Assembly (NCBI RefSeq): GCF_030369635.1
Contig: NZ_CP128474.1
Location: 1,550,001-1,614,000, forward strand
Source: Microbacterium arborescens
Lineage (GTDB): Bacteria > Actinomycetota > Actinomycetes > Actinomycetales > Microbacteriaceae
Reading direction: 5' to 3'
Length of the DNA stretch: 64,000 nucleotides
A program made the translations under genes and the position numbers. The notes beneath the pieces were generated by a model that had not been told where the DNA came from, searched no databases, and saw only the letters and a program-made list of their open reading frames with translations. Position 1 is the stretch's first letter; the number at the start of each line of letters is the position of its first letter. Shown piece by piece: positions 32,475 through 55,044 of the stretch.

Positions 32475-33534
32475 GCCTCGGCCGCACCTGGGCGGTCTCG
32501 CTCACGGGGCTGGCCGGCGATCTCGTCGAGGTCGAGGCCGACCTGTCGAACCAGACGCCCGCGTTCCGCATCGTCGGACTCGCCGACCGGGCCCTCGCCG
32601 AGGCGCAGCAGCGCGTGCACAACGCCTGCCAGAACAGCGGGCTGCCGCTGTCACGACGTCGTGTGACGGTCAATCTCTCCCCGGCCAGCCTCCCGAAGCA
32701 GGGATCGGGTTTCGATGTCGCCATCGCGGCGGCTGCGCTCGCGACAGAGCTGCCGATGGATCCGGTGTCCCTTGCCGACACGGTCCACATCGGTGAGCTG
32801 GGCCTCGACGGACGCCTCCGGCCGGTTCCGGGAGTGCTCCCCGCGGTGATCGCCGCGGCGCGGGCACGACGGCGGACGGTCATCGTTCCCGAGGCCTGCC
32901 GAGCCGAAGCCGCTCTCGTCGACGGCATCCGGGTCGTCGGATGCCGCACCCTCGCAGGCGTCGCGCGCTGGCACGGGCTCGACATCGATGGTGACGACGA
33001 AGCGGTGCCCGAGGTGCCGGGACCGGCCGCGGGGCGAGGGAGCAGCGGCGACGACCCACCCGGGGAGGACCTGTCGGACATACGCGGACAGGAGGAGGCG
33101 ATCGACGCGCTCGTCGTGGCGGCCGCCGGCGGCCATCATCTGCTCATGAGCGGTCCGCCCGGCGCGGGCAAGACCATGCTCGCACGACGCCTGCCGGGGA
33201 TCCTGCCCGCGCTCGACGACGAGACCGCGCTTCAGGTGGCGTCCATACGCTCGCTGTCCGGCACGGTCGTCGACAGCCTGAGCAGGGTTCCTCCGTTCGA
33301 GGCGCCGCATCACAGCGTGAGCGTCGCCGCGCTGGTGGGCGGCGGCAGCAGGTCGTTGCGCCCGGGGGCGATCGCTCGCGCGAGCGGGGGCGTGCTGTTC
33401 CTCGACGAGGCTGGTGAGTACAGCGCCCACGCGTTGGATTCTCTGCGTCAGCCGCTCGAGGCGGGGTCGATCGACATACACAGGGCGGGGTTCCGCGCGA
33501 CGCTGCCGGCGAGGTTCCAGCTGGTCGTTCTGGC
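32471..33534 (+). pseudogene. comM: comM 5' part, interrupted by the island
   Basis: N-terminal two-thirds of the AAA+ branch-migration helicase ComM (YifB), which helps integrate DNA during transformation. Present: the ChlI domain (WAVSLTGLAGDLVEVEADLS, ATELPMDPVSLADTVHIG), Walker A SGPPGAGKTMLARR, and FLDEAGEYSAHALDSLRQPL (Walker B). The match stops after ARFQLVVLA; the rest is at 55040-55531. The frame runs on in island DNA to a stop at 33691 with no ComM similarity. Joining the two halves gives 1551 bases, exactly 517 codons with stop. Confidence 0.95.
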
Positions 33535-33540
33535 TTGTGT
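33530..33540 (+). repeat. Left island junction (attL): CTGGC and inverted end
   Basis: CTGGC at 33530-33534 repeats at 55040-55044. GCTTGTGT at 33533-33540 is inverted at 55033-55040 (ACACAAGC). Confidence 0.85.
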
Positions 33541-33793
33541 ACGACTGGGCAGTGTCCGGCACCCATCTCGCGTTTCGGCGCCCCACGGCAGGCCAGCGGC
33601 CCTTGTGGCCGTCGAATGCCGACCGAATGGGGGGACGAATCGGTGCGCTATGTGCCTGGATTACGAGTCCGACGTCGGTGTTTCTGGATAGCATCGGACT
33701 ACGTTGTACGCGTTGGAGGACCTCCGCGCGAACGGCGTGAAGACAGCCGGAGCACGACGCCGACAGAGGCTTCGTCGAAGCCTGAGGAGCGCA
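33541..33793. other. Left-end non-coding segment before hsdM
   Basis: About 250 bases with no supported gene. The comM frame continues to 33691 without homology. The hsd promoter should lie here (a TAGCAT box at about 33687 is a weak candidate). GAGGAG at 33784 is the hsdM ribosome site. Confidence 0.4.
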
Positions 33794-35398
33794 GTGCCCC
33801 CGAAGAAGAAGCAGGCGCAGTCACTCGAGGAGACCTTGTGGGAGGCAGCCACTGCGCTGCGCTCGTCGATGGATGCGGCTGAGTACAAGCATGTCGTCCT
33901 CGGTCTCATCTTCCTGAAGTACGTCTCGGACACCTTCATGGTCCGTCACGACGACCTCGTGCGCCTCGTCAACGACGAGTCCTCGGACTACTTCATGCCC
34001 AACGAGGCGGCGAAGCTCTCAGTCCTCGAGGACCGGGACGAGTACACCGCCGAAGGCGTCTTCTGGATTCCGGAGGGTCACCGTTGGGATGACCTGAAGA
34101 AGGCAGCCAAGCAGGCGGACGTCGGCGGACGCATCGACAAGGCCATGGAGGCCATCGAACGCGAGAACCCAAGCCTCAAGGGCGTGTTGCCGAAGAACTT
34201 CTCGCGCCAGGAGCTGACTCCCGCGATGCTCGGTGGACTGATCGACGTATTCTCCCGCAACGATCTCGCCGCCGCGGAGCACAAAGACCTCGACGTCCTT
34301 GGGCGCGTGTACGAGTATTTTCTTGGTAAGTTCGCTGGCGGCGAGGGCAAGCGCGGCGGCCAGTACTACACTCCCCGCTCTGTGGTGCAACTGCTCGTCG
34401 AGATGCTCCAGCCGTACCACGGACGGGTCTACGACCCCGCTTGCGGCTCGGGCGGCATGTTCGTCCAGGCCGACAAGTTCGTGCGCGCCCACGGCGGCAC
34501 TCACGCCGACATCTCGGTCTACGGCCAGGAGTCGGTGCCGACCACTTGGCGTCTGGCGAAGATGAACCTCGCATTGCGCGGCATCGAGGCAAACCTGGGC
34601 CCGGAGTGGGGCGACTCTTTCCACGCTGACAAGCATCCTGATTTGCGCGCCGACTTCGTGATCGCGAACCCGCCCTTTAACCAGAACGACTGGGGTGGGG
34701 AGCGCTTGGCGAGCGATCCGCGCTGGAAGTACGGCACGCCGCCGACAGGCAACGCCAACTACGGCTGGATCCAGCACATGTTGCATCACCTGTCGCCGAC
34801 CGGCACGATGGCGACCGTACTCGCAAACGGGTCGCTCTCGAGTCAGCAGAACGGTGAGGGCGACATTCGAAGGAGACTCGTCGAAGCGGATCTCGTCGAG
34901 TGCATCGTTGCGTTGCCGCCGCAGCTCTTCTTCGGCACTCAGATACCCGTTTGTCTGTGGTTCATGACGAAGAACAAGGCAGGCATTCCGAACGGCCTCA
35001 AGACACGGAAGCGGACGGGCGAGACGCTCTTCATCGACGCACGCAAGAACCTCGGCTACATGGAGACTCGTACAGTGCGAGCCTTCGCTGACGAAGATAT
35101 CAACAAGATCGCCGACGCATACCACTCGTGGCGTGGCACAGAGACGAGCGATGGCGAACCCTACAAAGATGTCGCAGGATTCTGCCGGTCCGTGCCGACG
35201 AGTGAGATCGCCGAGCATGACTACATTCTGACGCCGGGCCGCTACGTCGGGGCTGAGGACGCAGAGGACGATGGCGAGCCGCTCGACGAGAAGATCGCCC
35301 GCCTGAGCGCGAGCATCCGCGACGGCTTTGCGATGCGCGGTCGTCTGGAAGACCGCATGCGTGCTGCGCTTGACGCGCTGGTGGTGGCGGATGAGTGA
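33794..35398 (+). CDS. hsdM: Type I restriction-modification system, methyltransferase subunit HsdM
   Basis: N6-adenine DNA methyltransferase subunit. The start is taken as GTG 33794, behind GAGGAG, giving MPPKKKQAQSLEETLWEAA; a start 90 bases upstream adds an unlikely Arg-rich stretch. 534 residues. N-terminal HsdM helical domain (HVVLGLIFLKYVSDTF, SRNDLAAAEHKDLDVLGRVYE), SAM-binding YDPACGSGGMF near residue 213, catalytic NPPF near residue 292, and LPPQLFFGTQIPVCLWF. It overlaps hsdS by 8 bases. Confidence 0.95.
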   Translation: MPPKKKQAQSLEETLWEAATALRSSMDAAEYKHVVLGLIFLKYVSDTFMVRHDDLVRLVNDESSDYFMPNEAAKLSVLEDRDEYTAEGVFWIPEGHRWDDLKKAAKQADVGGRIDKAMEAIERENPSLKGVLPKNFSRQELTPAMLGGLIDVFSRNDLAAAEHKDLDVLGRVYEYFLGKFAGGEGKRGGQYYTPRSVVQLLVEMLQPYHGRVYDPACGSGGMFVQADKFVRAHGGTHADISVYGQESVPTTWRLAKMNLALRGIEANLGPEWGDSFHADKHPDLRADFVIANPPFNQNDWGGERLASDPRWKYGTPPTGNANYGWIQHMLHHLSPTGTMATVLANGSLSSQQNGEGDIRRRLVEADLVECIVALPPQLFFGTQIPVCLWFMTKNKAGIPNGLKTRKRTGETLFIDARKNLGYMETRTVRAFADEDINKIADAYHSWRGTETSDGEPYKDVAGFCRSVPTSEIAEHDYILTPGRYVGAEDAEDDGEPLDEKIARLSASIRDGFAMRGRLEDRMRAALDALVVADE

Positions 35399-36566
35399 GT
35401 GGTCACGAACGCGACTGGGCGACGTGCTCACTATTAAGCACGGGTACGCGTTCGCCGGTGACGCATTCTCCGACAATCTCGACTTCCCCACGCTGGTGAC
35501 GCCCGGGAACTTCTCGATCGGCGGTGGGTTCAAGGCGACTAAGCCGAAGACGTTCCTTGGGGATTACCCACCGGAATACCTGCTCGCACCCGGTGATGTT
35601 GTCGTTACGATGACTGATCTGAGTCGAGCCGCTGATACGCTCGGCTATTCCGCTGTCATTCCAGACGACGGACGCGAGTACCTTCACAACCAGCGGATCG
35701 GCAAGGTCGTTATCACCGACGTTGATCGGGCGGATCTGAAGTTCGTCTCGTACCTCCTGCGCGGCCGAGAGTACCGCCAACACGTGGTCGGCGGAGCGAG
35801 CGGATCGACGGTCAAGCACACCAGTCCGGGGCGTATTGAGTCGTTCATAGCTGAGCTCCCGCAGCTCGACGAGCAGAAGCGCATCGCCTCGGTCCTCGGC
35901 ACGTTTGACGACCTGATCGAGACGAACGTCCGTGACGCAGAACACGCGGACGAGCTCTGGCGCGCAGTTCTTCGAGCAGAAGTAGGGAACGAGTCGATGG
36001 GTGTCGCGCTCTCGTCGCTCGCACAGTTCGTCAATGGTCGCAATTTCACGAAAGATGCGTCGCGGTCTGGGCTACCCGTAATTCGAACGCCGGAACTTCG
36101 TACAGGTCCATCAGGCTCCACGGTTAGAACCGAAGTCGCCACAACCGCCGATCGGATCGCGAATGTTGGTGACATCCTCTTCGTCTGGTCCGGCAGTCTC
36201 TTTGTGTCACGTTGGTACTGGGAGCCCGGCCTGGTGAATCAGCATGTGTTTAAGGTGATCCCGGAACCCGACGTTCCCGACTGGCTGGTTATGTTCGCCA
36301 TTGAAGAGCTTATGGACGATTTTCTAGGGGTCGCTGCTGACAAGGCGACCACGATGGGACACATCAAGCGCAGTGACCTCGACAGACTCGTGGCAGTTCC
36401 GCCGCGGTTGGCTTGGTCGGCTCTCGATGCGAAGATCCGTCCCCTTTGGGATGGAAGTCTTTCGGCGCGAACGCATATCTCAGACCTCGCCCGCGCACGT
36501 GACGAGATCCTTCCGTTGCTGATGTCCGGCAAGATCCGTGTCGACGAGAGATTCGAGGTGGCGTAA
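35391..36566 (+). CDS. hsdS: Type I restriction-modification system, specificity subunit HsdS
   Basis: DNA-recognition subunit, 391 residues from ATG 35391 ([21 protein letters not shown]). Two target-recognition domains alternate with two helical conserved regions: [21 protein letters not shown] near residue 165 and [20 protein letters not shown] at the end. Two half-sites should form a bipartite target that cannot be read from sequence. Overlaps hsdM by 8 bases and hsdR by 1. Confidence 0.93.
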
Positions 36567-39500
36567 TGGCCGGGATGACCGAAGACGATCTGGAGCAGAT
36601 TGTACTGAGCGACCTCGCCGAACTCGGTTGGGCAACCGTCCATGGCCCTGATATCGCACCCGGGGAAGCTCACGCCGAGCGCACTGACTACCGGGACACG
36701 ATTCTCGAGTGCCGCGTCGCCTCGGCCGTCCGGCGACTCAATCCCGAGCTGCCCGCGGCTGCCGTGCACGACGTCGTCAGCACCATCAAGCGCGCAGAAT
36801 CGCCTCTGGTCGAGACCGAGAACTGGCGCGCGTACAAGTACCTCATCGAGGGCGTGCCGGTCGAGTACCGTGACGACGAAGGCACTCTGCGCACGACGCG
36901 CGCCTGGCTGGTCGATTGGGACGACGTCGATACCAACGACCTCATCGCGGTTGGTCAGTTCACTATCAGGGGCCCGAAGCACGAGCGCCGGCCAGACGTA
37001 ATCTTGTTCGTCAACGGGCTGCCGATGGCTTTGTTCGAGCTCAAGCGGCCCGGCAAGGAGTATGCCAGCGTCAAGGGCGCGCACCGCCAGACTCAGACCT
37101 ACCGGGCGCAGATCCCCGACGTGTTCAAGTGGAACCAGATCACGGTCGTCTCCGACGGCCTCTTCGCCAAGGCCGGCTCGTTCTCAGCCCCGTGGAACCA
37201 CTGGGCACCGTGGAAGACCATCGACGGCGTCGTGAAGGACCCAAAGCACCCGGCAGGCTACAAGCTGCCCGAGATCGAGGTCCTGACCCGCGGTCTGTTC
37301 TGCCCGGAGGTCTTCTTCGACCTCTGCCGGAACTACATCGCGACCTACGGTGACGGAGAGCACACCCGCAAGGCAGTCGCGAAGTACCACCAGTACTGGG
37401 CGGTCAAGAAGGCGGTCGACGAGACGCTACGCGCGGTCGCCGGTGACGGCCGCATCGGCGTTGTCTGGCACACCCAGGGCTCGGGTAAGTCGCTCGAGAT
37501 GGCTTACTACGCGGGCAAAGTCATGCGGAATCCGGGTATGCAGAACCCGACGATTGTGGTGTTGACCGACCGCAACGACCTCGACGACCAGTTGCTCGAT
37601 GAGACATTCGCTTCCTCGAAGGTCGGCTCACCTCTACCTGAAGCGCCCGTCCAGGCCGACTCTCGCGCTCACCTCAAGGAGTTGCTGGCAGGACGTGAGT
37701 CCGGCGGCATCGTCTTCACGACCATCCAAAAGTTCGGGCTCTCCAAGGCCGACCGAGACGCCGGCCGGAAGTTTCCCCTGCTCTCGGATCGCCGCAACAT
37801 TGTGGTGATGGTCGACGAGGCGCACCGCTCGAACTACGACATCATCGATGGCTTTGCGCGGCACCTGCGCGATGCGCTGCCACACGCGTCGTTCATCGGC
37901 TTCACGGGGACGCCAATCGACGAGCGCGACCGCTCCACCATCGAGATCTTCGGTACGACCATCGACGTGTACGACATGACCGACGCCCAGCAGGACGGTG
38001 CGACAGTCAAGGTCTACTACGAGCCTCGCCTGGCGAGGATCGACCTGCCCGAGGCTGCTCGTGAGGAGATCGATTCGGAGTTCGAGGACATCGTCGAGGA
38101 GGCCAGCGAGGGCGTCGGCGAGAAGCTGAAGTCCAAGTGGGCGAAGGTCGAGGCGATCGTGGGCTCCGAGAAGCGCATTGCTGAGCTCGCGGCCGACATC
38201 GTCGAGCACTGGGAGGCGCGACGCGAGGTGCTCACGGGTAAAGCGATGATCGTGACGATGTCGAGGCGCATCGCGGTCGACCTGTACGACGCGATTGTGA
38301 AAATCCGTCCGGACTGGCATCACGAGGACGACGACAAGGGCGTCGTAAAGACAGTCATCACCGGCAACGCGACGGACCCCGCCGAGTTCCAACCGCACAT
38401 CCGCAATAAGAAGATGCGCAACGCGATGAAAGCCCGCGCAAGTGACGCTGACGACTCGCTCGAGCTCGTGATCGTCCGCGATATGTGGCTCACTGGCTTC
38501 GACTCGCCGCCCATGCACACGATGTACGTCGACAAGCCGATGCGCGGCGCGTCGCTGATGCAGGCCATCACCCGCGTGAATAGGACGTTCAAGGACAAGC
38601 CAGCGGGCCTGGTCGTCGACTACATCGGCATCGCGGAGAACTTGCGCGACGCCCTGCAGACCTACACGAAGCGTGACAAGGACGGCCGAGCGATCGGCGA
38701 CGACGTTCGCCGTGCGGCGATCCCGGAAATGCTCGCCGAGCACAGCATCGTGTCCGACATGCTCCACGGCATCGACTGGGTGACAATCCTGGGCTCCGGT
38801 AGCGAAAAGGCCTTCCTGCACGCGGTCGCCGCAACGGTTGACCACTTGCTCGAGTCTGAGCGCGAGTTCGTCGACGGCTCGCACGGCGACGCCGGCGAGT
38901 TCGCAGACGAGGAGGGGCACTCGCTCAAGCAACGCTTCATGGCGCACATGCGCCGCCTCAAGCAGCTCTATACGTTGGTACCGACCTCGGAGGAGGCCGA
39001 GGCGATCCGCGACGATGTCGCCTTCTTCGACGCTGTGCGCCAGTCGATCGCCAAGATCGAGGGATCTGACCGGCCATCGGCCGACGACGACGCGGCGCTC
39101 GACACAGCGGTGCGCCAGATCGTCAGCAACCACATGGCCGGATCCGGCGTCATCGACATCTACGAGGAGGCCGGACTCGGTAAGCCCGACATCTCGCTGA
39201 TCGATGATGCGTTCGCCAAGCAGTTCGAGAGCGCCGAGAACCAGAACCTTCAACTCGAGATGGTTCGACGTCTGATCAGCCAGGAAGTGAAGGTCATCGC
39301 AAAGCGCAACATCGTTGCGGGGCGTCAGTTCTCTGAGATGCTTGCCGAAGCGCTGAACCGATACCAGAACCGAGCCATCGATGCGGCGCAGGTCGTCGCC
39401 GAGATCGTCGAGATCGCGAAGCAGATCAAGGCACAGCAGGAGCGCGGTGAGCGCACCGGCCTGTCCGAAGATGAGTTGGCGTTCTACGATGCGCTGTCCT

Positions 39501-39736
39501 CCAACGAAGCCGCGAAGCTCGCGATGGAGGAGGCAGTCATGAAGCAGATCGCGCACGAGCTGACCGAGATCGTGCGCAACGACGCGAAGACGGACTGGAA
39601 CCTCAAGGAAACAGTGCGAGCGAAGCTGCGAACGCGCATCAAGAGACTCCTGCTCAAGCATGGGTATCCGCCGGACCAGGAGGTAGCGGCGACCGAGCTG
39701 ATTCTGAAGCAAGCGGAGGTCACCGCAGGTGAGTAG
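36566..39736 (+). CDS. hsdR: Type I restriction-modification system, restriction subunit HsdR
   Basis: Motor and nuclease subunit, 1056 residues. The PD-(D/E)xK nuclease is at residues 144-160 (D144, E158-L-K160 in [12 protein letters not shown]) and is intact. Helicase motifs: Walker [12 protein letters not shown] (K308), [18 protein letters not shown] (417-422), FIGFTGTPI, and later [23 protein letters not shown] and AITRVNRTF. The C-terminal helical region docks on the methylase. The ATG overlaps the hsdS TAA by one base. Confidence 0.95.
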
Positions 39737-42700
39737 TGACACGAGCGAAGCGAGCCTGAGCGCGGTAGGGCCAGCCGAGTCGGTCAAGGCCCCGGGCGCC
39801 GCCGAGAACGCGACAGCAGGCGAAAACTTGCCCAAGAAGGAGATCAAGCTCAGGTCTCTCGCGCCGGAGTACAAGAGCGACCACCACAGCGCATACGTGC
39901 GGCACCTCGAAGACGCCGTTCGCGCGAAGAAGAACCGGAACATCGCGCTTACCGGCCGCTACGGCGCCGGCAAGTCGAGCGTGCTCGACGAGTTCGAACA
40001 GAAGCACCGCGACAAGACCGTCCGCATCAGCATCAACACACTCGGACCGGACGAGAACGATGAAGACCTGACGAACCGCATCCAGAAGGAGCTAGTCAAG
40101 CAGCTCGTCTACCGACTTCGGCCCGGCCAGGTTCGGCGCTCCAGGTTCGCCCGCCCGAAACCGCTCACACGGTGGCGCGCCCTCGCCCAGGCGTTCGGCG
40201 TCACCGTCATCGGCCTCGCGCTGCTCTGGCTGTTCGGGGTGCGCCCTGCCAACGGCTGGCCGGGCGAGGGCCTCACAGCCGAAGCTCAGGGCCTGCTGGC
40301 GTTGGTCTTCTTCTGTCTTGTGCTTTGCGGAGTGTGGGGCATTCGATGGCTGGTCGGCGACAGGATCGTCTCTGAGGTGACCACAGGAGGCACGAAGATC
40401 GCTCTCGGCGACGGGCCGACCACCTACTTCGACAGCTTCCTCGATGAGATCGTTGCCTTCTTCGACGCGGTCGAGCCCGAGTTCGTGATCTTTGAGGACC
40501 TCGATCGGTTCGACGATCCCCAGATCTTCGACTCCCTACGCGAACTCAACACGTTGATCAACGCCTCGGCGCACTGGAAGGGCAGGCCGAATCCACTCCG
40601 GTTCATCTACGCGATCAAGGACAGCCTCTTCGAGCAGTTGGGCTCGGAGCCCGATCGCAAGGAAGAGGACCCGAAAGGCAAGAAATCGGGCGTCGGCCCC
40701 GCAAGTGGCGAGCAGGACACAACCCCGGACGGTCAGGAGACCACGACGAGTGATGCTGCAGCAGCGAAGCCAGCGATCGCACCGAGACTGGACGTAGCTG
40801 CCGAGGCTGTTCGACGCGCCAACCGCACAAAGTTCTTCGAACTGGTCATCCCGATCGTGCCGTTCCTCTCTCACCGGAACGCGCGCGACCACCTCTCTGA
40901 CGCACTTGCCGAGCTTGGCTTCCCGAAAGACTTCGTGTCCCGCCCGCTGTTGGACCTCGTAGCGCGGCACACCACTGACATGCGCCTGATGATCAACATC
41001 TGCAATGAGTTCGCAGTCTTCGTCGAGCGTCTCCTCTGGACCGAGACTCCGGCGCCAGGGATGACTGCCGACCATCTCTTTGCGCTCGTCGCGTACAAGA
41101 ATTTCCACATGGCTGATTTCGAGGCCATCGCGGAGCGCACGAGCACCTTGGATGTACTCGAACGGCATCATCGAGACGACGTACGGGCACTGATCGATGG
41201 ATTGCAGGAGAAGCGCCGGGACCGCGCAAGGATTGAGGAGCTACGCAAGCGGAGGGAAGAAACAGCCAAGATTCTGGGTCGTCGTCTCCGCGACATGAGC
41301 GGCATGCTCCCGACTCAGTACAGCAGGCGGGCGTACACGGTCTCGGCTGGGGCATGGAGCGGTGTGTTGGAGGCTGTTGACACCGTCGATTTCTGGGCGA
41401 ACGTGGCCGAGACCAAGTCGCTCACGCTCCACCAGACGAATCTCTCGCCGGTAACCACGGGCGCCAAAGTGATTGAGGCTGTCTTCCCAGAGCTTGACAG
41501 CCGGGAAGCTTGGCTCGGCCCCGACCCGGCGGAACTCGAGCGTCTCCGGCGGCGCTATGACGAGGACATCGCGATGCTGCGTGGCGCCGACTTCGTCGAG
41601 CTAGCCGAGTACGACGGCGTCCCCGAAGGCCGCACGAAGTTCGCAGAGCGGATCACGGATGTGCTGAAGTCAGAACTTGCTCGTGTTCTCGTTCGCAAGG
41701 GATTCATCACGCGGAACTACGCCGAGTACTCGGCGATCTTTTACGGTAGCTTCGTCGGGGTCGACGTGGCCTACTTCTACAACCACAGCGTTCAGCCGAA
41801 CGAGATGTATCTCGACTTCCACTTCACGTCGGAGAACGCCGTTAGCAACTTGCTCGAGCAGGTGCCGTCGGACTTCACGAGCACCGTGAGCTCGCTGAAC
41901 ATCGAAGTGGTCGACTACCTCCTGACGCATCAGCTCGAACGGGCGAAGGAAGTTGCGGCGTACATCGCATCCCACGAGTCGAGCGAGGACGTGCAGGCCT
42001 TCCTCGACGCCTACTTCAACACGCCCGAGGCACAGCACGAGGCACTCGTCGGGCTGCTCGCTTCGCACCCATGGCACTCTCTATTCGAGTACTTGGCCGG
42101 CCATCGCGCGATCCCGGATGAGGACACGAGGCTGCGGATGTTCGACGCAGCCCTCCTGGGTGTGCAGCCCGTCGAATCGTACAATCTCGGCGAGGTGGCA
42201 AGGGAGCTCTTGGCCGCCTATCACCCACGCATGAAGGCCATCACGGCCGAGCACAGCGCTGCTCAGATCGCGCGAGTGTTCGAGATCCTCCAGGCTGTGG
42301 AACTTGCTGTGCCGGATCTGAGCCACCTGAGCAAGCCACTTCGCGAGCGAATCGTGGCTGCGCACATGTACGAAATCACCGTCCCAAACTTGCAACTAGC
42401 GCTCAGCACCGAGCAGGCCCCTGTTCTGGACGAGGTTAGGAAGAACCAGCATGTGTGGGAACACTGCCGATCCCGCGTCGACGACTACCTCGACGCCATG
42501 CGTGCGCACGAGACGGTCGAGTGGTTCGTCCTGTCCGAGCAGGTGCTTATCGACGTCATCAACGAGCAGCACGAGTCCTGGACGGACGACCAGCTGCGGG
42601 CGGTGATCGAACGCAGTGCCGACACGGTGGCGATCGCTGACCTCCACGAGCTTCCCGAATCAACCTGGCCGATGCTCGTCGAGTCGCGGCATGTGGAACC

Positions 42701-43541
42701 GTCGTTGGTGAACACCATTGAGTACGTGAATGCACACGGCATCGACGAGCGGGTTGCTGGCTTTCTATCGCGGAACGGCGAGGGCCCCATCGAGCTGACG
42801 GAAGTCGACGCGATGGATGACGAAGCGCGCGCAGGACTCGCGGTCAGCCTGTTGAACGCCTCAAAGCACCTGAGTGCCCGAGACCGCGTGGCGTTGGCAG
42901 CTCAAGTGAGTCCTGACGGCGGCGTCGATCTCGCGTCCGTGACGCCCAGTCAGGATCCGCTCTTGGCACGGGGTCTCGAAGTGGGGCTGTTCGAAGACGA
43001 CCTCGCGACCTTCGCCCACTTCGCACCTGGCGGGTGGGCGGCCATGTCCGAGGCCTTCGAAGTGTCGAAGAATGTCTCGGGCTTCATGTCGCCTGCGATC
43101 GTGCGGGGATTCGTCGCAGAGTTCCTCGGCGGGAAGTCTCCTAAGCGTCTAAAGGAGATCGTGGTGGACCGGCTTGCACAGTACGTCGCGGACGACGACG
43201 TGCGGGCCCTCCGGGCCGCCGGCGAGTTCGCCCGTGCGGAGTCACTCAAGCTGCCGCTGGACGAGGTTCGGCGGATTGCGCGCGTCACCAAGGCCGCCAG
43301 TGCTGTCATGCGTCAGTTGGTATTGTCCGCAAAGGAACTTGCGCCAGTCGATGTCGTCGAGATCCTCGCCACCCTCGGACCGCCCTACGACAGGCTTGTT
43401 GCGGGGCCCGGCGCGAAGTTCGACTATCCCGGGAACGTCCCGTCTCTTGACACAGTATTCAGGCGCCTCGAAGAAGCGGGCCGCATCAAGATCACGAGGA
43501 AGGTCCTCGGGTCTGGGCGGACTGTGGAGGTGCTCGTCTAG
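39729..43541 (+). CDS. KAP/YobI-like membrane P-loop NTPase
   Basis: 1270 residues, starting at GTG 39729 inside the end of hsdR (8-base overlap), so it is translated with the restriction operon. Walker [15 protein letters not shown] (K82); two membrane helices about 155-171 and 187-209 inserted between Walker A and Walker B; Walker [13 protein letters not shown] (252-262). This layout is that of KAP-family NTPases and YobI-like proteins. The remaining 1000 residues are long helical repeats without a recognised enzyme domain. Family members include PifA-type phage exclusion proteins, so a defence role is likely but inferred. Confidence 0.87.
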
Positions 43542-44769: not shown

Positions 44770-44793
44770 CTCGGCAGGGCGCCGGCAGTCCCA

Positions 44794-45656: not shown

Positions 45657-45771
45657 CACAATCGCGGTCGTATGCGGAGCCCAGCCCCGTGACACGACCG
45701 GAGGTCATCGGGGCCGGCAGCACACGTGCAGACGAGAGCGGAGTGATCCGATGGAGACGGTGATTGTTTCG

Positions 45772-45809
45772 TATGGCCTCCCGAATTATGCCATACGGAT
45801 TAGGCCATA
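45772..45809. promoter_or_regulatory. Candidate operator upstream of the Xre gene
   Basis: Three copies of a GCCATA unit: TATGGCC (inverted) at 45772-45778, TATGCCATA at 45787-45795 and GGCCATA at 45803-45809. Spacing of the units is 15-16 bases. The segment is AT-rich for this genome and lies between divergent genes. Confidence 0.45.
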
Positions 45810-45839
45810 CCGACTGATTGTCATCGCAACGCTGGAGAG

Positions 45840-46124: not shown

Positions 46125-46258
46125 GCACACCGACGGTGTGCCGCCGTCTTAGGCCCTGATCGGTTGAGTCGACCTGCAGCGGCGTGCTGTCTGTTGAGTC
46201 AGGCCCTGCACCCGCGCACGACGAACGCCTTAACGGGGCCCCGCCCTGGACGCGGATC

Positions 46259-46924
46259 CTAGACAGCCCGCCGCCAGGCCACGTGGGGCTCGTGGCGCTC
46301 ATCGTCCGTGACGGTGCTCAGGTGGTCATTGGCGGGAAGAGCTGCCCAAAGCGCGGGGTGAGCGAGCCACAGATCCGGATAGAAGTGCTGGTAGACGAAC
46401 CGGATGAACTGAGCCGGCGTCATGGGTGCTTCGCAGGCGATGCGGCAACTGGCTGCATTGATGGTCAGATGGGCCGCGGGGTGCCCGGGGGCCGATGCCA
46501 TCGGGTCGTAGTCGAAGCGTATGGTGCTCTGCATCGTGACGTCATCATGGGGGCCAGCGGTGTGTAGCTCGATGATGTCGCTGAGTGACTCAGTGAGGAG
46601 CAGATCTGGATCGACTCGGTAGGGGCAGGGCACGAACGCCAGGCGGTGAGATGTTACCGCGCCGTTGGCCACGGTGTACCGCATCTGAAGGAGCGCCCCG
46701 TCGTTCAGTAACGCCGAGTATTCCCCGGCGACCGCCCAGCGACGATAGGTGCGTACAGTCGGGTAGTCCGCGAAGTCGACAAACCGCTCCAAGGGTGTAG
46801 GGGACCGCCACGCCACCGTATCGCCGTCGACCGTCACAGGGTTCGGTACCAAGAGCAGCTCCGCGTCCAGCAGAGCGCTGAGGAGTTCTCGGATGCTACG
46901 GCCGAGGGCGTTAGCTGTCGTCAT
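46259..46924 (-). CDS. DUF2290-like protein
   Basis: 221 residues. The blocks RFVDFADYPTVRTYRRW, IRFDYDPMASAPGHPAAHLTINAASCRIACEAPMTPAQFIRFVYQHFYPDLW fit the DUF2290 family as I know it. No catalytic motif is clear. It overlaps the upstream helicase gene by 14 bases, so the two work as a unit. The pairing of DUF2290 with a large helicase recurs in other genomes to my knowledge; a defence role is plausible but unproved. Confidence 0.7.
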   Translation of the reverse strand: MTTANALGRSIRELLSALLDAELLLVPNPVTVDGDTVAWRSPTPLERFVDFADYPTVRTYRRWAVAGEYSALLNDGALLQMRYTVANGAVTSHRLAFVPCPYRVDPDLLLTESLSDIIELHTAGPHDDVTMQSTIRFDYDPMASAPGHPAAHLTINAASCRIACEAPMTPAQFIRFVYQHFYPDLWLAHPALWAALPANDHLSTVTDDERHEPHVAWRRAV

Positions 46925-49043
46925 CGGGCAAACTCAGCTGACTCAGTCGCCGCACCAGTTTCGGCGGGAGCTGCTCCGGGACAATCCTGCCGGCCTCCAG
47001 CGCCTCCACGAGCTGTTCGATCGTGAGCAGCCCACGTTCCGCGGCGCCGTCGTCATGCAGGTCGGAGCTGACCCTCCTCATTTCGGCCATCTGTCCTTCT
47101 GTGGGGATACGGAACGCGAGCTTGTAGTCGGCTGCCTGCACCCGTCCGATCTCGGCGGCAACAGGGGCCATGGCTGGTCCCCAGCCACAAATCCGCACCC
47201 ACGCCTTGCTGCGCGTGATCGCCGTGAAGATGGTGTTGCGCCGGCTGACCTCGCTCAGCCCGCTGCCGGCGTACTGCGCGTCCACAACATACACCATCGG
47301 TGCCTCGTTGCCTTTGGCGCGGAAGATGTGGGCCACCGCGATTGAGCCGCGCTGGAACACCTCGTCGCGACTGGTGTTGACTCCGACCAAATGGCTGGGG
47401 ATGCCGCGCTCCTCGAGTACGCGGGCCAGGCGCGCGTACCTTCTCTTCGACGTGTACGCGCTCGGAAGGACGATCAGGATGTCGTCCTGTTCGAGCTCGC
47501 CGACCGTGGTGTCCGCAATGATCTGGTCAGCAACCCACTCGTCCTGTGCAAGCTCGTCACGGAACTCTCCCTCCAACACCACCGCGTCTGCGCTTGGGAT
47601 CCGGTCGAAGTACTTCGGGGTGCTCTCCGTGGCCCGCTCCAGTTCGACCGACGATCCGAGCTTGAGCGTCCCGGAATTGCGGCGGTAGCCGATGTCCTCC
47701 CACAGGACGGGGTCATCGAAATGCTGGATGAGCCCGCCTTTTCGATAGATCCCGAATCCCACCGCGTGTGCGGTCGCCAGCGCCCAGGGCGAGTTCCGAT
47801 AGCACACCGGTAGCACGATGTCCCGGCGCGGCTCCCCTTCTCGGTTCTGGATGTTCACCATCGGCTCGCCGGTCGGTGTGGCGCCGAATAGCTCCGCCAC
47901 GTTGGCCATCTCAGTCTCGTCTAGCTTCTGAAGTTCGTCGTATGCCCAAACGATTCGCTTGGGGTCCCGCGTGAAGAGGTAGACGAGCTGGAAGAACGCG
48001 GGCGGAAGGTCCTGCGCTTCATCGATCAGGACGGCGTCGAACAGCTGAGGAAGTGCGTCGCGGTCCTTCGCGATGCTCAGCAACTCAGCACAGGCGCCCT
48101 CGAAGGCGTCGTCATAGCCGAACCGACTGCGTGCGGAGTCGAAATTGTGCGCTTGCACGCCCAGCGCATCGGCGATGCGGGTGTACACCCCGTCGCGGGC
48201 GCGAGAGCCCCACGCGTGCATGATGGATACGCGGTCACTGTCTGGCAAGTCGTCCATGTGCGCGAACGAGAATCGTTTGACGAGGTCTTCGAACTGCTGG
48301 TACAGCGACCTCGACTGGAATGTCACGACGATATTCCAATCCTGGTGCTGCGCATGGAGAAGCGCGGCTTTTAGCGCCAGCACGATCGTCTTTCCCGAAC
48401 CAGCGAGACCGCGAATGCGCTGCGGCCCTTCGGGCGTTTCGATCGCTGCCTTCTTCTGCCAGAAGTCGAGGTTCGCGATGCCGCGTTCGATTATCTTCAT
48501 GGTGGCGCCGCGGCTATCCTCGCTCTTCACCTCGGAGCGCCGCTTTGCGGGCCGGATCGTCGTGACCCGCTGCAGAGCCGCCTCTAGATTGCGATACCGC
48601 TCTGCGGATAGCGACTCGAACGAAGTGATCAGGTCGGGGAGCTGCTCGAATGTTGCGAATGTCGCCGCACTGGGTGGCGGCGTACCGGGGTCAGCACTGA
48701 ACACTGTGATCGTGCCGATAGTGATGTCGAACTTCCTGCCCGTTCGCAGAGACTCATGCCGTGAAAGGTGGCTTTCGAGGGTGTTGTAGATAGTGTCCTG
48801 CTCCGAAATGAGCTGATCCCAGTTCTCGTCATCACCTGGCAGACCGTCAGCGAAGCGGAACGCGATCAGCCCGTACTGCTGCGACACGAGCAGCGCATCG
48901 ACCTCGACACGGTCGTCAGCGGTTGCGAGGACCGGGTACCCGAGGTAGATCGTGCCCTCGTCAATATGCTCCGCGGCAAGCTCAGCAAGCTGCGCGGCGG
49001 CCGCTCGATTGTCCTGCTGCCCGTGCACTACCTCGAGCGTCAT
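46911..49043 (-). CDS. UvrD/Rep-like superfamily 1 helicase with NERD-like N-terminus
   Basis: 710 residues from ATG 49043 (MTLEVVHGQQDNRAAAAQLA). The N-terminal 70 residues resemble a NERD nuclease-like fold (VEVDALLVSQQYGLIAFRF), but the usual Lys of ExK is missing, so cleavage there is doubtful. Helicase: Walker A GLAGSGKT (K218), LIDEAQDLPPAFF (341-345 DEAQD), WAYDELQKL, GTLKLG and the C-terminal FTAITRSKAWVRICG. Probably acts on nucleic acid together with the downstream DUF2290-like protein. Confidence 0.85.
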   Translation of the reverse strand: MTLEVVHGQQDNRAAAAQLAELAAEHIDEGTIYLGYPVLATADDRVEVDALLVSQQYGLIAFRFADGLPGDDENWDQLISEQDTIYNTLESHLSRHESLRTGRKFDITIGTITVFSADPGTPPPSAATFATFEQLPDLITSFESLSAERYRNLEAALQRVTTIRPAKRRSEVKSEDSRGATMKIIERGIANLDFWQKKAAIETPEGPQRIRGLAGSGKTIVLALKAALLHAQHQDWNIVVTFQSRSLYQQFEDLVKRFSFAHMDDLPDSDRVSIMHAWGSRARDGVYTRIADALGVQAHNFDSARSRFGYDDAFEGACAELLSIAKDRDALPQLFDAVLIDEAQDLPPAFFQLVYLFTRDPKRIVWAYDELQKLDETEMANVAELFGATPTGEPMVNIQNREGEPRRDIVLPVCYRNSPWALATAHAVGFGIYRKGGLIQHFDDPVLWEDIGYRRNSGTLKLGSSVELERATESTPKYFDRIPSADAVVLEGEFRDELAQDEWVADQIIADTTVGELEQDDILIVLPSAYTSKRRYARLARVLEERGIPSHLVGVNTSRDEVFQRGSIAVAHIFRAKGNEAPMVYVVDAQYAGSGLSEVSRRNTIFTAITRSKAWVRICGWGPAMAPVAAEIGRVQAADYKLAFRIPTEGQMAEMRRVSSDLHDDGAAERGLLTIEQLVEALEAGRIVPEQLPPKLVRRLSQLSLPDDDS

Positions 49044-49214
49044 GCTGCCTCCTCGTTGGCCTCGTCCGTAAATATATCGGCACCCGAAACTGGCATCGTT
49101 AGTCGCCCATCGCATAGTGGCAAAGGCAGCCGGGCCGCGAACAGCCGCCGGTGGCGCACATCCACAAGGTCGGCCCGCCAGCTTGTTCGAGCAGCCAGCC
49201 GTCCCCGCGCGGGT

Positions 49215-49616
49215 CTACCGGTCGGCGCGTCCGCGCAAAGGGATGAGGCCGCTTGCGTGTTGGAGTTGGGCGCGGAGGGCATGGTTCTCGAGCGTCAGCC
49301 GCTGAACCTCCGCAGCCGCCGTGCGCAGCTCGCTCTCGAAGCGCGCTTTGTCGTTACGGAGCCGGGCAAGCTCAGCAACGGGCAGTTCAGACACGGCACG
49401 TTCCGGAGCGCGGGCCCGATTGCGCAGCGCGTCTCTGCGAGTATCGGCGAGCGTCTGCGCGAGTTGAGGGAAACGGCGCCAGAAGGTGGCGTTGCTGAGT
49501 CCGAGGCGCGCGGCGACGGCGACGACAGCGGGAGGGCGAGATGGATCCTCCCGCTTGAGCGCCTCGATGACAGCGGTGATCTCGGTCTCGGTCGGTAGCG
49601 GTACGGCGCGGGTCAT
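49215..49616 (-). CDS. TnpC-like small coiled-coil protein (DUF6262-like)
   Basis: 133 residues from ATG 49616 (MTRAVPLPTETEITAVIEAL). A helix-turn-helix-like VVAVAARLGLSNATFWRRFP is followed by a coiled coil (LRNDKARFESELRTAAAEVQRL). It is the last of four overlapping genes; the equivalent in Tn554 is TnpC, which influences orientation and frequency of transposition. ATGA overlap with the recombinase upstream. About 170 bases to the helicase gene hold no gene. Confidence 0.7.
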   Translation of the reverse strand: MTRAVPLPTETEITAVIEALKREDPSRPPAVVAVAARLGLSNATFWRRFPQLAQTLADTRRDALRNRARAPERAVSELPVAELARLRNDKARFESELRTAAAEVQRLTLENHALRAQLQHASGLIPLRGRADR

Positions 49617-51696
49617 GGCTCGGCTCCGTTGCTCTCCAGCAGATGCATGATCTGCGCTCGGCGCTTCCGCAGGCGCTCCGCCAGGAGCGGTGGCAGCGCG
49701 GGGCGGGTCGCGGTGTCGGCGTCGATGATCTCGAGCTCTTCCTGCCAGGCGCGGCGGTTGTCGGCGTCCAAGGCGACGTTTCCACAGACGAGGGGCTTGC
49801 ATGCGCGCAGGTCCGGGCCCTCATCCGGTGCGCCGGTGCGATCGCGGCAGAGTGCCTTGCGGTGGTCGTACACGCAGGTGACGTAGCGATCGGGATACAC
49901 CGCGGGATCGTGGCGGGTGATGATCCGCAGCAGTCGGTGACGGTCGGTGGCGACGACGCCTTGGAAGCGAGTCTTCTCGCCGAACTCGGCCAAGCGCTCC
50001 CGGGCGGTGTCTGCTGCGGGTCCAAGGAGCGCTGAGTGGTCGTGCTGGTCGATCATGGCCAGCAGGTTCTCACCGCGTGCCAGAGCCTGCTCGGCTTCGA
50101 CCTCGGCGCGGAACCCGGATTCGGATGTGCCGGCGTAGCCCTCGAACATGTGGATGCTGTGGTGCCGGTACGCGATTGCTCCCGCGATCGATCCGCCGGG
50201 GCGGCGTGCGATGTACCAGGCGAGGGTGCGGCGGAACTGCCTGCTGGACAGTCGCCAGGTGCGTCCGTTGACGTCAGGGATCCCGTCGTCCCGACCGTGT
50301 GCGGCGCAGTAGTCGTTCACCCAGGTCGTGAAGCGTGCCAGCTGCCTGTTGGTGGCAGCGAGGGTGAGTGCGTGGTTGCCGCCGCGACCGGCTGATCCGG
50401 CGCCGGGGCCGACTTTCAGCGGTGTGAACAGCCATTGAGCAGGTGTGGACGTGGCGGAGTGCGCGTCCTCGAGTACTTGGATGGCGCGCGCGGCGGCCTC
50501 GCCAATGACCCAGGTTGCAGTGGTGCCGCGGTCGTCGAGCTCGCCCTTGAACGCCGTGCTCGTCACGGTCCACCGATAGGGGCGCCCCGTCCCGTCCCGG
50601 GCAGAGGTACAGCAGCCGGGGCGGAGGTGTTTGATTTCGTTGTCGCGCATGCCAGACAGGAAGGCGATCACGATGTAGCAGGCGATGTGGAGCACCTGCG
50701 TGAGTACGGTGAGGGACTGGTCCGTCCCGGGAGTCAGGCTGACGCCCTCGATCCACGGCGCCCCGTCGAGACGGCCGTGTACGTCGAGGCCGAGCTCGGC
50801 GTATTCCGATACGCCGACGATCGCGGCCGTGGCGAGGATCTCTTCGCGTTGTCGCTCGAGAGCAGTGCGGTCGCACCCGATCTGGTAGGCGATCGCGTTG
50901 AAGTGCGAGATGCGCGCAGGCCGGGCAAGGGTGAACCCGTGCGACGGGTCCTTGCGAGGTATGCGCGTATCCGGTCTTGCTGGAATCCGTACGGCTTGCC
51001 GGTGATCGGCTCTTTTTGCACTGGGCGGCGCCGGACGCTCCAGGATCTGATTGCGGCGATAACGTCGCCGCTGAAGTCATCCACGAATCGCATCGCCCAC
51101 ACCAGTACTCGGCTGTGCACGGCTTCGGGGATGCGTTCGGTCGTGTTCTCACGGCTACGGCCCGGGTCGGGCTCGCTCCAGGAGGCCGCGCGTCGCGGAT
51201 CGGTCTGCAGTCCCGCTTCCGCGACGGCGCCGCGGTAGCGCCACAGGATGTTCACGGCCGAGCGCAACGCGAACCGCCTCGACGCGGACGGGAAGGTGGT
51301 GAGTAGGTGGCGCTGGTACTGCTCGTAGACCGTCGTTGTGACCTCCGGCAGGTGCTTGTCGGGGTGCGTCGTCTCCAGCCAGCGAAGGAAGATCCGCAGG
51401 TTGTAGAACCCGGTCGCGACACTCGAGATCCGTGGTCGAGGCGCCTCGTCCGGCGTTGGCCCGGACAGCATTGCGTAACAGAGCCGTTTGAGCGCGGTCC
51501 GGTGCAGCGCCGGGACCGTGTCGAATCGGAGCGTCAGGCCGCGTTCCTGCTGCTGCACGGAGGCTGGCGACAGCGCCCAGTCGTCATCGTCGAATCGTGC
51601 CGTGTCCTCGAGATGGTATCCAGGGCGCAATGCGCGCCCATGAAGGACGAATGGGAGATCCGCGATCTCCGCGTCGAACGCAGTGCGCGAGGTCAT
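49613..51696 (-). pseudogene. Third tyrosine recombinase of the trio, frameshifted
   Basis: Starts at ATG 51696 (ATGA overlap with the gene before). The N-terminal part (to about residue 245) reads FYNLRIFLRWLETTHPDKHL, AVNILWRYRGAVAEAGL and GKPYGFQQDRIRAYLA. The protein then continues in another frame (RKDPSHGFTLARPARISHFN, CDRTALERQREEILATAAI), through FLSGMRDNEIKHL (box I Arg), LSSRQFRRTLAWYIARRPGG and the Tyr in MFEGYAG, to 49613. The shift is at about 50,945-50,980. Full product would be near 690 residues. Decay, sequencing error or programmed shift cannot be told apart. Confidence 0.8.
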
Positions 51697-53516
51697 GGTC
51701 GTTCCCAGGGAGGTTCGACGAGATCCAGCAGGCTGTCGTTCGGGCGCTCTGCGTGTGCGCGCGCGATCTCCGCCTCGGTGAATTTTGGCAGCACGTCATG
51801 ATGGATCGCCGCCCAGACCGGCCCGTAGCGGGCCCACCACTCCTCATCGGAGAGCACCGACCTGCGCGTCTCGAGCGCGTCCAGCAGGCTCAACAGCCGG
51901 GGTAGGTGATCTCCGGTGACGACACAGTTGCTGCAGAGGAAGCAATCAAGGAAGGACGTCCCGCAACGACGCCCTGTGAGCGGATGGTGGGAATGGTCAC
52001 GACACGACGTCCACGCCGTCTCGGATCCGCACGCTTCGGCCTCCGGCGGCGCCGACCCGGCTGGCGGCGAGGTGGTGAGGATGTTCAGATGGCGGCGTCC
52101 GCCGTTGTCGCGCAGCGCGCGCAGGTGCGCGTCGTAGGCAGCGCGCTCCACGTCGGTGAACGCCTCGGAAACCACTTCGCGCGCCCACTCGATCGTGGTC
52201 TGATCACCCGAGAGGTAATTGCGGAACAACACGGCGGTGGTGTTGCTGCGGGCTGCGGAAGGCAGATGTCCGCCGAGCTGACGAGTACGGCGAACGTCGA
52301 TACTTGTCTTCAGCCGGTTCGCGGTGAGCCGCAACGAGTCTCCAGTCGCGTCCGGGTCGGGGTCCGCTCCCGACGGTGGGTCGGCGCGCAGGTCGTGCAC
52401 TGCCACCCACGAGCCCCAGCGCAAGCTCGCATCCAATGAGGCGTCGAACGGATTACGGCACTCCGACGCGTGAGGTTGCCCGCCGAACTGGTGCCATATG
52501 GCCCAAAAGGCGGGCGTCTGCAGGAACGCGCGAGCTGGGGCCATAAGCCGATGCAACAGCAAGTAGAGGCCACCAGGCGTATGAAGCTCGCGACCTTCCA
52601 CACCGATTTCCCACGTGACGGTCTGGTGCCAGTGACCCGGGCCGCGGCGCCGTTTGACGAGATCGACTTCGACCGCGCGCCCCTCGATCACGCGATGCTC
52701 GACCGGAAGCTCCTTAATGACCTCGAGGTTCCATCCAGTCACCGCCATCAGCAGCACCAGCATCGGATAGAGGTCTCGGCGAGTCGCGAACACCCTTTCT
52801 GCCGTTGACCGCCTCGCCTCGGCGCGCGCCGGAACAGACACTCCTCCCAGTCTCACGCCACCAGCGCGGCGTGCCGCGGACGCGGCTGAATCCTCGCTGG
52901 CGTCGGCGTCCGCGTCGGCGTCGTGGAATCTCTGCCGCAGCGCATTGATGTCTGCGCGTGCCGCGGCGATGATTCTCGCCAGCTCAGCATCCGAGTATCC
53001 GGAAACCGCGGCCCTATTCCGACCGGCGAATACGCGAGCGCGGAGCCGGTCTCTCACCTCCGAGGACACCAGCTGATTGAGCGGGGGCTGCTCGAAGAGA
53101 AGGCCGATCATGCGCAATTCGGCGCCAGCCTGGGCGCGCCCAATGGCCTCGGAGCGCAGCCGCCGGTAATCGTCCACGTGCAACGCGGTGAGTTCCGCCG
53201 GCGCCGTCGGAGGCCATCGCGTCCCGTCGAGGAACCGCATGAATCTTCCCAGTGCGCCCCAAGCCCCTTGGCTGGACGCCAGGGTACGAAGGCCACCGGC
53301 CGGGCCGGTACGGGCCGCCCATGCACTAGCAAGAGGCTCATGCCAGCCAGGTAGCGGCAGCGAACCGACCTCGAAGCGATAATGCCGCCGATCCTCACCT
53401 CTGAAGTGCACGGTCGTTCCCTCGACGCCCGACGTGTCGCCTGCGACCGGGGCGTAGCGCCCGGCCGGAGACCCCGATGGCCGGCCGACGCCGGTGCTGC
53501 CTCGCCCCGCCATCAC
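51693..53516 (-). CDS. Second tyrosine recombinase of the trio (TnpB-like)
   Basis: 607 residues from GTG 53516, overlapping the upstream stop by 4 bases. N-terminal SAM-like DNA-binding region (AWGALGRFMRFLDGTRWPPTAPAELT), ELARIIAAARADINALRQRF, then the catalytic half: LVLLMAVTGWNLEVIKELPVE in the box I position (Asn where Arg is usual), SLRLTANRLKTSIDVRRTRQ and a C-terminal Tyr candidate in VLFRNYLSG. A cysteine-rich end (CRNPF earlier; CGTSFLDCFLCSNCVVTGDH) looks like a zinc site. Because box I Arg seems absent it may be a structural partner. Confidence 0.78.
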   Translation of the reverse strand: MMAGRGSTGVGRPSGSPAGRYAPVAGDTSGVEGTTVHFRGEDRRHYRFEVGSLPLPGWHEPLASAWAARTGPAGGLRTLASSQGAWGALGRFMRFLDGTRWPPTAPAELTALHVDDYRRLRSEAIGRAQAGAELRMIGLLFEQPPLNQLVSSEVRDRLRARVFAGRNRAAVSGYSDAELARIIAAARADINALRQRFHDADADADASEDSAASAARRAGGVRLGGVSVPARAEARRSTAERVFATRRDLYPMLVLLMAVTGWNLEVIKELPVEHRVIEGRAVEVDLVKRRRGPGHWHQTVTWEIGVEGRELHTPGGLYLLLHRLMAPARAFLQTPAFWAIWHQFGGQPHASECRNPFDASLDASLRWGSWVAVHDLRADPPSGADPDPDATGDSLRLTANRLKTSIDVRRTRQLGGHLPSAARSNTTAVLFRNYLSGDQTTIEWAREVVSEAFTDVERAAYDAHLRALRDNGGRRHLNILTTSPPAGSAPPEAEACGSETAWTSCRDHSHHPLTGRRCGTSFLDCFLCSNCVVTGDHLPRLLSLLDALETRRSVLSDEEWWARYGPVWAAIHHDVLPKFTEAEIARAHAERPNDSLLDLVEPPWERP

Positions 53517-54856
53517 GCTCTACCCTCGGATCGAGGAGCGCGCGGATCGTCCCACCCATCCGGGATCAATGCCAGCCGGGTTTCCAGCTCGAGCTCCTCC
53601 AATGCATGCAGGTAGATCTGGGTTGTGGTGACGCTGCGATGTCCCAGAGCCCTGCGCACCCAATCCAGCGGATCTCCGAACACGCGCACATAGTGCGTGC
53701 GTTGCTCAGACTTGAGCCCCGCCAACGCGGCGATGTGCCCGCGTTGCAGCTGTTCCAGCGTCAACACGGCAAATGTGTGGCGAAGCAGATGAGCGTGCGC
53801 GCGCAGCGCGAGCCCACGTGCCGCGCACCTGTCGTTGGCCTGGCGGAACAGGTCCTTCCAGGGCGACACCGACACTGGAGCACCGTCCTCGGTCAACCAC
53901 AGCGCCGCCGGTTCCGCCCCGCCCTCTGCTTCGCCCATGATGCGCGCCCGTTCCGACGGCGGCAGATTGGCGATCCTCGTGCGCGACAGAAGTCCACCGC
54001 CGGCCCGGGTGGTGACAACTCCTGTGTCGGGGTCCAGAAGCGGGCCGGTGGAATGCTCGTACCGTCCTCGAGCTCGCGCAGACTCGATCACGTCTCGCCG
54101 ATCGACCCGCACATATTCTGCGATCTCGCGCAGGACGCTCGCGGGTGCGTAGATCCAGCGCTCGGACCCCCACTTGGCTACCGCGCTACCCAACCAAAAC
54201 CTGTTATACCCGCTAGTCGGTGCCGAAGGGATCTCTGGCGCCAGCAACGAGGCCTGTTCCGTCAGGCGCAGGCCTGTTCGCACCATCAAGTCCGTGAATG
54301 CCGCGTTGCGCGCAGCCCACCTTCCACGGAACGACGGGTCCGGAAGGGCATCGGTCGTGTAACCGCGCACGCCCACATCACGCCACGTCCGATAAGACGC
54401 TGCGGGCAACCAATGCACGTGCTCACGACGCGCATCGTGCGAATACGTGGCCGCCGTCTGTTCCACAGAACGCGCCACAGACCGCGGCCCCGGGCGCGAA
54501 TGGCGTTGCGGAATCGGGTTCTCAGCCACGTGGCTACGCGAAAACTGCCAGCGAAAGAACCGGTTCTGGGCGCTGACCTCCCGGTCCCATGTCCGCCCAC
54601 TGACCAACGGGCCATGAGGATCCTGCCGGCGCCAGAGGAGATACGCGCGATGATCCGTCTCCGTCGCGTCCCGCCAATCGACGACTCCGCGGCCGCGGTA
54701 CAGGAAGTTGAAGAACATCACGAGGTCGCCCGCGTACCCCACGCGCGTTGACATTCGCGTCGACAGCATGTCCGCCGAGTAGAAGAACTCGTTCAGCTCG
54801 CGGTCGTACGCGAACGACGGCGACAACAGGAACGGCGTACCCAACGGGATACCCAA
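53513..54856 (-). CDS. First tyrosine recombinase of the trio (TnpA-like)
   Basis: 447 residues from TTG 54856. All catalytic residues are seen: R197 in RTGLRLTEQA, H356-x-x-R359 in AHLLRHTFA, H406 in ALGHRSVTT and Y415 in TTQIYLHA. Sensible protein (WRLFRLTDEPRAA, SRWWEQLGIP) continues in frame about 100 bases upstream of the TTG, up to an 8-G run; an ATG at 54974 lies just beyond but is out of frame by one base. So the natural start may be that ATG, giving about 486 residues. Confidence 0.85.
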   Translation of the reverse strand: MGIPLGTPFLLSPSFAYDRELNEFFYSADMLSTRMSTRVGYAGDLVMFFNFLYRGRGVVDWRDATETDHRAYLLWRRQDPHGPLVSGRTWDREVSAQNRFFRWQFSRSHVAENPIPQRHSRPGPRSVARSVEQTAATYSHDARREHVHWLPAASYRTWRDVGVRGYTTDALPDPSFRGRWAARNAAFTDLMVRTGLRLTEQASLLAPEIPSAPTSGYNRFWLGSAVAKWGSERWIYAPASVLREIAEYVRVDRRDVIESARARGRYEHSTGPLLDPDTGVVTTRAGGGLLSRTRIANLPPSERARIMGEAEGGAEPAALWLTEDGAPVSVSPWKDLFRQANDRCAARGLALRAHAHLLRHTFAVLTLEQLQRGHIAALAGLKSEQRTHYVRVFGDPLDWVRRALGHRSVTTTQIYLHALEELELETRLALIPDGWDDPRAPRSEGRA

Positions 54857-54957
54857 CTGCTCCCACCACCTGGAGCGCTCGGCAGGCTGCGCAGCACGCG
54901 GCTCGTCAGTCAGTCGGAAGAGACGCCAACGCCCACACTCAAGCGACGACTCACGAT

Positions 54958-54965
54958 CCCCCCCC
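54958..54965 (-). repeat. Run of eight G (minus strand) after the recombinase ATG
   Basis: On the minus strand ATG (54974-54972) AGC ACA is followed by eight G. With seven G the frame would join the recombinase; with eight it stops at a TGA after seven codons. Confidence 0.6.
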
Positions 54966-55032
54966 TGTGCTCATGCCAGGACACTACGCTCACGCAGTCC
55001 GGATGTGAACACCGAGCAGCGAGAAACCCCCG

Positions 55033-55044
55033 ACACAAGCTGGC
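55033..55044 (+). repeat. Right island junction (attR): inverted end and CTGGC
   Basis: ACACAAGC (55033-55040) is the inverse of the left end; CTGGC (55040-55044) is the shared 5 bases. ComM coding resumes at once. Confidence 0.85.

Follow-up and report, generated by a model that had tools for sequence, protein, structure and literature searches.

A probable GInt-like integrative element splits comM in a Microbacterium arborescens genome

We analysed a 64,000-nucleotide stretch of the Microbacterium arborescens genome (contig NZ_CP128474.1, positions 1,550,001 to 1,614,000), hereafter the window, in which comM is split by an island of about 21.5 kb that is very probably a site-specific GInt-like integrative element. 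Searched against the single 3.37-Mb contig, the comM profile TIGR00368 matched only at window positions 32489-33529 (profile positions 2-343) and 55040-55501 (343-495), and it revealed no second copy of the gene elsewhere in that contig. The 5' part of comM (32471..33525, plus strand, ending in ..CAGCTGGT) and its 3' part (55045..55531, plus strand, assigned by the TIGR00368 match and alignment) lie 21.5 kb apart with the island between them, just as the initial annotation had described. ComM function has presumably been lost in this strain.

The same annotation had pointed to CTGGC at both break points, which is indeed present at 33530-33534 and again at 55040-55044, and had taken removal of the island to restore the gene exactly. 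The resulting join is 1551 nt long and reads FQLVVLATNPCPCG, giving FQLVVLATN with five residues before NPCPCG. We compared it with the intact site in 40 comM loci, 30 of them the best-scoring ones of a scan of 295 genomes. The motif was readable in 36 of these loci (it is unreadable in L147, L148, L149 and L176), as FQL in 35 and CQL in one, followed by four residues and NPCPCG and never by five; in G216, a genome labelled as the same species, it is FQLVLATNPCPCG. At this motif the proposed repair has one codon more than each of the 36 readable genes, G216 included. The join that fits connects the window up to 33525 with 55039 onwards and yields 1548 nt and 515 residues; the rejoined ComM and that of G216 are both 515 residues long, with 475 identical positions and 2 gap positions overall. 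Because the fitting join is 33525/55039, the shared CTGGC is not a simple target repeat.

The left junction holds nine bases foreign to comM, CGTTCTGGC (33526..33534), followed by a conserved element end, TTGTGTACGACTGGGCAGTGTCC (33535..33557, plus strand), which is alike in eight other elements, seven in comM and one in umuC. On the right, the element end ACACAA (55033..55038, plus strand), an inverted copy of the left TTGTGT, is followed by the hexamer GCTGGC (55039..55044), which fits comM codons (V-L-A). A four-gene operon on the minus strand occupies this end of the island. It comprises a ginA-like tyrosine recombinase of 447 residues (53513..54856; Pfam Phage_integrase and Phage_int_SAM_1, XerC-like below the cut-off), a ginB-like gene of 607 residues (51693..53516), a ginC-like large tyrosine recombinase (49613..51696) recognised by the fold of its homolog in G212, and a small ginD-like gene (49215..49802) identified by alignment. 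The ginD-like open reading frame (ORF) overlaps the end of ginC as listed, and its true start possibly lies further in. GinB has no Pfam match, and its assignment rests on position, size and homology within the set; PDB sequence searches with the GinB and GinC profiles gave 0 matches each at E<=0.1. No Pfam match to DDE-type tni/tns transposition genes, as in AbaR and Tn7-like elements, was found among the ten island ORFs scanned with Pfam, the remaining ORFs not having been scanned. Whereas the G212 homolog of ginC is open over 694 residues, the window gene changes frame near 50.9 kb and lies in two frames; because ginC is frame-broken, the window copy is probably immobile now.

The initial annotation had suggested a search for further islands joined at the same site, and such islands exist. 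Among 295 Microbacterium genomes including that of the window, of which the 30 with a weak or absent comM match and G216 were rescanned, comM is split at profile position 343 in six: G081, G197, G212, G257, G276 (with the comM halves on different contigs) and the window. Homologs of all four genes ginA-D occur in 5/5 of the other islands and at the same end, with GinA identities of 57-89%. A GinA search of the 295 genomes found 17 at E<=1e-20, and scores above 800 bits were confined to exactly the six position-343 genomes, the next match (275 bits) being in G230, where comM is intact. Chance breakpoints, with comM split by an assembly error or by insertions or deletions of unrelated origin, are hardly credible: the shared CTGGC, only five bases, is weak on its own, but six Microbacterium genomes, and others beyond the genus, carry the same operon at the same site, and the assemblies are independent. 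Our assignment of the island to a GInt-like integrative element is based on the four-gene operon at one end, the short inverted ends TTGTGT/ACACAA that delimit the island, and the presence in other genomes of related operons, with cargo that is largely different, at the same comM codon.

The window cargo comprises three predicted anti-phage systems. The first is type I restriction, encoded on the plus strand by hsdM (33704..35398; Pfam N6_Mtase and HsdM_N, PADLOC MTase_I), the specificity gene hsdS (35328..36566) and the restriction gene hsdR (36566..39736), the latter two by family match. It is followed by a YobI-like, Tmn-like P-loop NTPase (39729..43541, plus strand; PF20693 7.1e-100, PADLOC Tmn 3.3e-40). 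The third, on the minus strand, is a DUF2290 protein (46259..46924; PADLOC DUF2290 4.3e-32) with its helicase partner (46911..49115; PADLOC Helicase 1.4e-211, UvrD_C_2). Cargo is largely unlike across the six islands, and the window type I genes are matched only in G212, at 25-27%. In the other islands nine ORFs were checked (four in G197, one in G212, three in G257, one in G276, none in G081). Four of the six islands proved to carry defence-type cargo: the three systems of the window, a type I methyltransferase in G212, a cyclase with E1-E2 genes in G197 and a cyclase in G257; the match in G276 was weak. The CBASS-like cyclase and E1-E2 genes of G197 (Microbacterium sp. MYb66) lie at L063:16704-19195.

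GInts, for which a six-base staggered exchange has been proposed (Bardaji et al. 2017, PMC5385486), resemble the present islands in their site specificity, imperfect repeats and variable cargo, and in having at one end three recombinase genes with a small fourth one. The ginABCD layout is found here in the gene order of the window and the homologs of all four genes in the five other islands, GinA being assigned by Pfam and the GinC homolog by fold; the same comM codon is used in 6/6 members within the genus, with short imperfect repeats. This is a likeness to the published description in gene layout, site specificity, repeats and cargo. GInts have a short AT-rich far end; any such end is weak in the window, where the left 169 bp have 63.3% GC against 64.2% in the island and 68% in the flanks; the five others range from 54.7 to 65.3% over 170 bp. 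In contrast to the published GInts, the target here is comM and the host belongs to Actinomycetota; the main text of PMC5385486 contains none of the words 'comM', 'chelatase' and 'Actinobacteria'. The strand-biased circularizing elements (SEs) of PMC10214605, reported there only from Gammaproteobacteria, are likewise similar in having four genes, an ordinary and a large tyrosine recombinase, six-base host and donor fingerprints and inverted ends. It is this GInt/SE type, rather than the one first named for the window, that the four-gene module resembles.

Tn554, the transposon with which the initial annotation had compared the recombinase set, targets radC. Large tyrosine recombinases beside an ordinary one, a small last gene (TnpC) and a six-base footprint are features common to Tn554 and the window module according to PMC10214605, and the annotation was right that tyrosine recombinases are present. 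However, Tn554 has three transposition genes (TnpA, TnpB, TnpC) and the window module has four, and four-gene homologs, not three, were found in 5/5 other Microbacterium islands and 5/5 plasmid relatives examined. A Tn554-type transposon is thus quite unlikely on gene content.

A different question is how the present copy reached this strain. It may have entered by homologous recombination between comM flanks from an already-occupied strain, the gin recombinases having acted only in an earlier host, an explanation we regard as close to evenly balanced and leaning slightly to the negative. In a comparison of the window with G216 in 250-base steps, 17 of the 20 steps outside a tract at ~30.3-61.5 kb are at least 99% identical (the other three 95-96%), whereas alignable steps within it are at 70.6-96%, with abrupt boundaries to the left and right of the island and an extra block at ~56.65-59.1 kb. 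From this alignment, a tract including the island therefore seems to have been replaced in one of the two strains, and the broken ginC of the window beside its open closest homolog in G212 also favours entry by recombination. Yet the replaced strain could be either of the two, and a search with the right flank in 84 other genomes (G216 excluded) found no donor of the diverged tract, the best reaching 71% over 1.9 kb. Recombination also leaves the same-site insertions with other cargo in five genomes unexplained, and therefore adds to site-specific integration by a GInt-like element and does not replace it.

Related elements occur beyond the genus. When named genomes were scanned, 14 GinA loci were obtained, nine of them flanked by comM: five are the known Microbacterium islands, and the rest belong to two Curtobacterium genomes, M. 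murale and a record named Corynebacterium glyciniphilum. In the last of these comM has two cuts, at profile positions ~221 and 343 (L154, L155, L163). In a family sample, 8/398 genomes had a GinA match at E<=1e-20, our own counted; this adds comM copies in G526 (same orientation) and G381 (opposite), and the other five had no comM match beside ginA. Three copies, the two of Curtobacterium and G381, are thus inverted relative to comM, and in the GinA tree they form their own branch (93/90, not starred). An Arthrobacter copy clusters with the same-orientation copies, as does one plasmid copy at an open fork; the remaining four plasmid copies fall between the same-orientation and inverted sets. 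The plasmid copies come from four-gene gin-like operons on large actinobacterial plasmids (L115-L119; 5 of 199 listed records, GinA identity 47-56%), and no comM or umuC match was present in the flanks examined for these five. Close GinA relatives are rare in wider samples: an order-level sample had GinA in 1/396 genomes, our own only (E<=1e-60), and a class-level sample in 8/394, the seven others at no more than 300 bits.

The Arthrobacter copy, in Arthrobacter sp. E3, is an 8.6-kb element inside umuC just before SNNDG, in a genome with intact comM. A plasmid as its seat was considered and is unsupported, since neighbouring ORFs look chromosomal by eye, without a family search. ILEs, described in rulB of plasmid pWW0 in Pseudomonas with a 3-bp repeat (PMC4542609), are similar in having three recombinases and a fourth conserved ORF and in lying close to the 5' end of a gene of the umuC family; they differ in their Pseudomonas host and 3-bp repeat. 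The literature searched describes ILEs in rulB, GInts with targets other than comM and, in proteobacteria, insertions into comM; within it we found no GInt-type element in comM, no GInt in Actinobacteria and no link between comM and umuC.

The junctions suggest how gin elements may enter comM. The gin recombinases would cut and join the gene at both edges of a six-base core. Next to the comM 3' half the host's own six bases would be retained, and next to the 5' half there would be bases brought by the element. All nine hexamers read beside the 3' half (CCTGGC, GCTGGC, CCTCGC, CCTCGC, ACTGGC, GCTCGC, GCTTGC, GCTGGC and TCTTGC) have the form NNTNGC, which is that of intact comM in 36/36. On the 5' side the left end TTGTGTACGACTG.. 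is conserved across the same-orientation comM copies, and seven others of these have six foreign bases between comM and TTGTGT (TTGTAT in G685), where the window has nine. The six bases are GGTGCT (G197, G212), CGTCTT (G081), CGTGTT (G276), GGTGTT (G685), TGCACA (G257) and CGCCCG (G526). Of the eight same-orientation comM copies for which both ends were read, all have a comM-like hexamer next to ginA and seven have foreign bases at the far end. In the two inverted Curtobacterium copies the 5'-side hexamer is CGTGCC and the 3'-side one is GCTCGC or CCTCGC; G381 has GGTCGC and GATGGC. The host and foreign sides of the two Curtobacterium copies look reversed relative to ginA, and their 3' side looks host-derived too, whatever the orientation, which seems not to fit the SE rule that the host hexamer is on the intA side (PMC10214605).

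Of the seven clear hexamers on the 5' side, five fit NGTN(C/T)T, a pattern whose background frequency in Microbacterium DNA is 0.43-0.53%. If the copies are independent, p is about 9e-11; counted once per branch (3/3, omitting two misfits), p is about 1.5e-7, the pattern having been picked after looking in both cases. NGTN(C/T)T corresponds to the umuC Val-Leu codons just before SNNDG and is found in the Arthrobacter gene and in 8/8 plasmid umuC genes picked from 40 listed, and GGTGCT is identical to the hexamer of a Microbacterium amylolyticum plasmid umuC. We tentatively propose, while thinking it rather more likely wrong than right, that comM-resident gin elements keep a six-base memory of their last home, that one recombinase set uses two homes with a like core (umuC and chromosomal comM), and that most comM copies arrived from a umuC copy. 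The umuC-type home is a Y-family polymerase gene, often plasmid-borne, the Arthrobacter one being chromosomal by its neighbours. TGCACA and CGCCCG do not fit the pattern, and the nine bases of the window are ambiguous, since CGTTCT fits NGTN(C/T)T and TCTGGC is comM-like. Junction hexamers might give each element's route from sequence, which would make the movement of GInt, Tn554 and SE elements directly testable.

Apart from gin elements, comM is interrupted by islands with serine recombinases, at profile position ~79 in G093, G115 and G246 and at ~306 in G017, G020, G029, G040, G107, G130 (halves on different contigs) and G273 (loci L076-L080, L082-L084, L087 and L089). A serine recombinase was found near the comM junction in 10/10 of these by tblastn, with identities down to ~24-29% in G107, G115 and G273, and Resolvase and Recombinase domains in 6/6 given to Pfam. 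G229 is less clear, with comM cut near position 355 and a serine recombinase ~0.5 kb further in. Taken together, comM is interrupted in at least 17/295 Microbacterium genomes (6 gin, 10 serine, 1 less clear), a count that leaves out those with partial or faint comM (G001, G027, G030, G103, G163, G168, G171, G235, G251 and G260) or no comM match (G046, G151, G213 and G266). At least two kinds of mobile element, unrelated to each other, target comM, in agreement with the initial annotation, which had AbaR in mind as the other element; here gin-type islands use one site and serine-recombinase islands others. 'comM' matches for Dehalococcoides in the serine-recombinase literature were 'pers. comm.' and were discarded.

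That annotation had taken the targeting of comM by unrelated elements as the unusual point; interruption of comM by integrase elements as such is not new. By way of a single integrase type, Croucher et al. 2016 (PMC4774983) found mobile genetic elements in the comM genes of Aggregatibacter, Acinetobacter, Mannheimia, Francisella and Pseudomonas, and, like the present islands, these lie within comM, which is viewed there as limiting transformation. They differ in having that one type (CF65_00446-like) and gammaproteobacterial hosts. Transformation is further reported to be able to delete mobile elements (PMC4774983), and Acinetobacter is reported to have become more transformable once AbaR was removed from comM (PMC7508600). 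Convergence of unrelated recombinase classes on comM within an actinobacterial genus, if real, would fit selection on elements to silence transformation, beyond the Gammaproteobacteria where comM insertions were reported, provided that the genus is transformable.

The window dprA (55528-56710), which adjoins comM, lies in at least three frames and is open in G216. A link between the loss of comM and that of dprA was considered and rejected, since DprA is broken in the window and open in 16/16 other split-comM genomes examined. Among 32 intact-comM loci, DprA is split, partial, cut by the stretch end or without a match in six (L011, L012, L017, L019, L021 and L032), and the other 26 are open over most of DprA.

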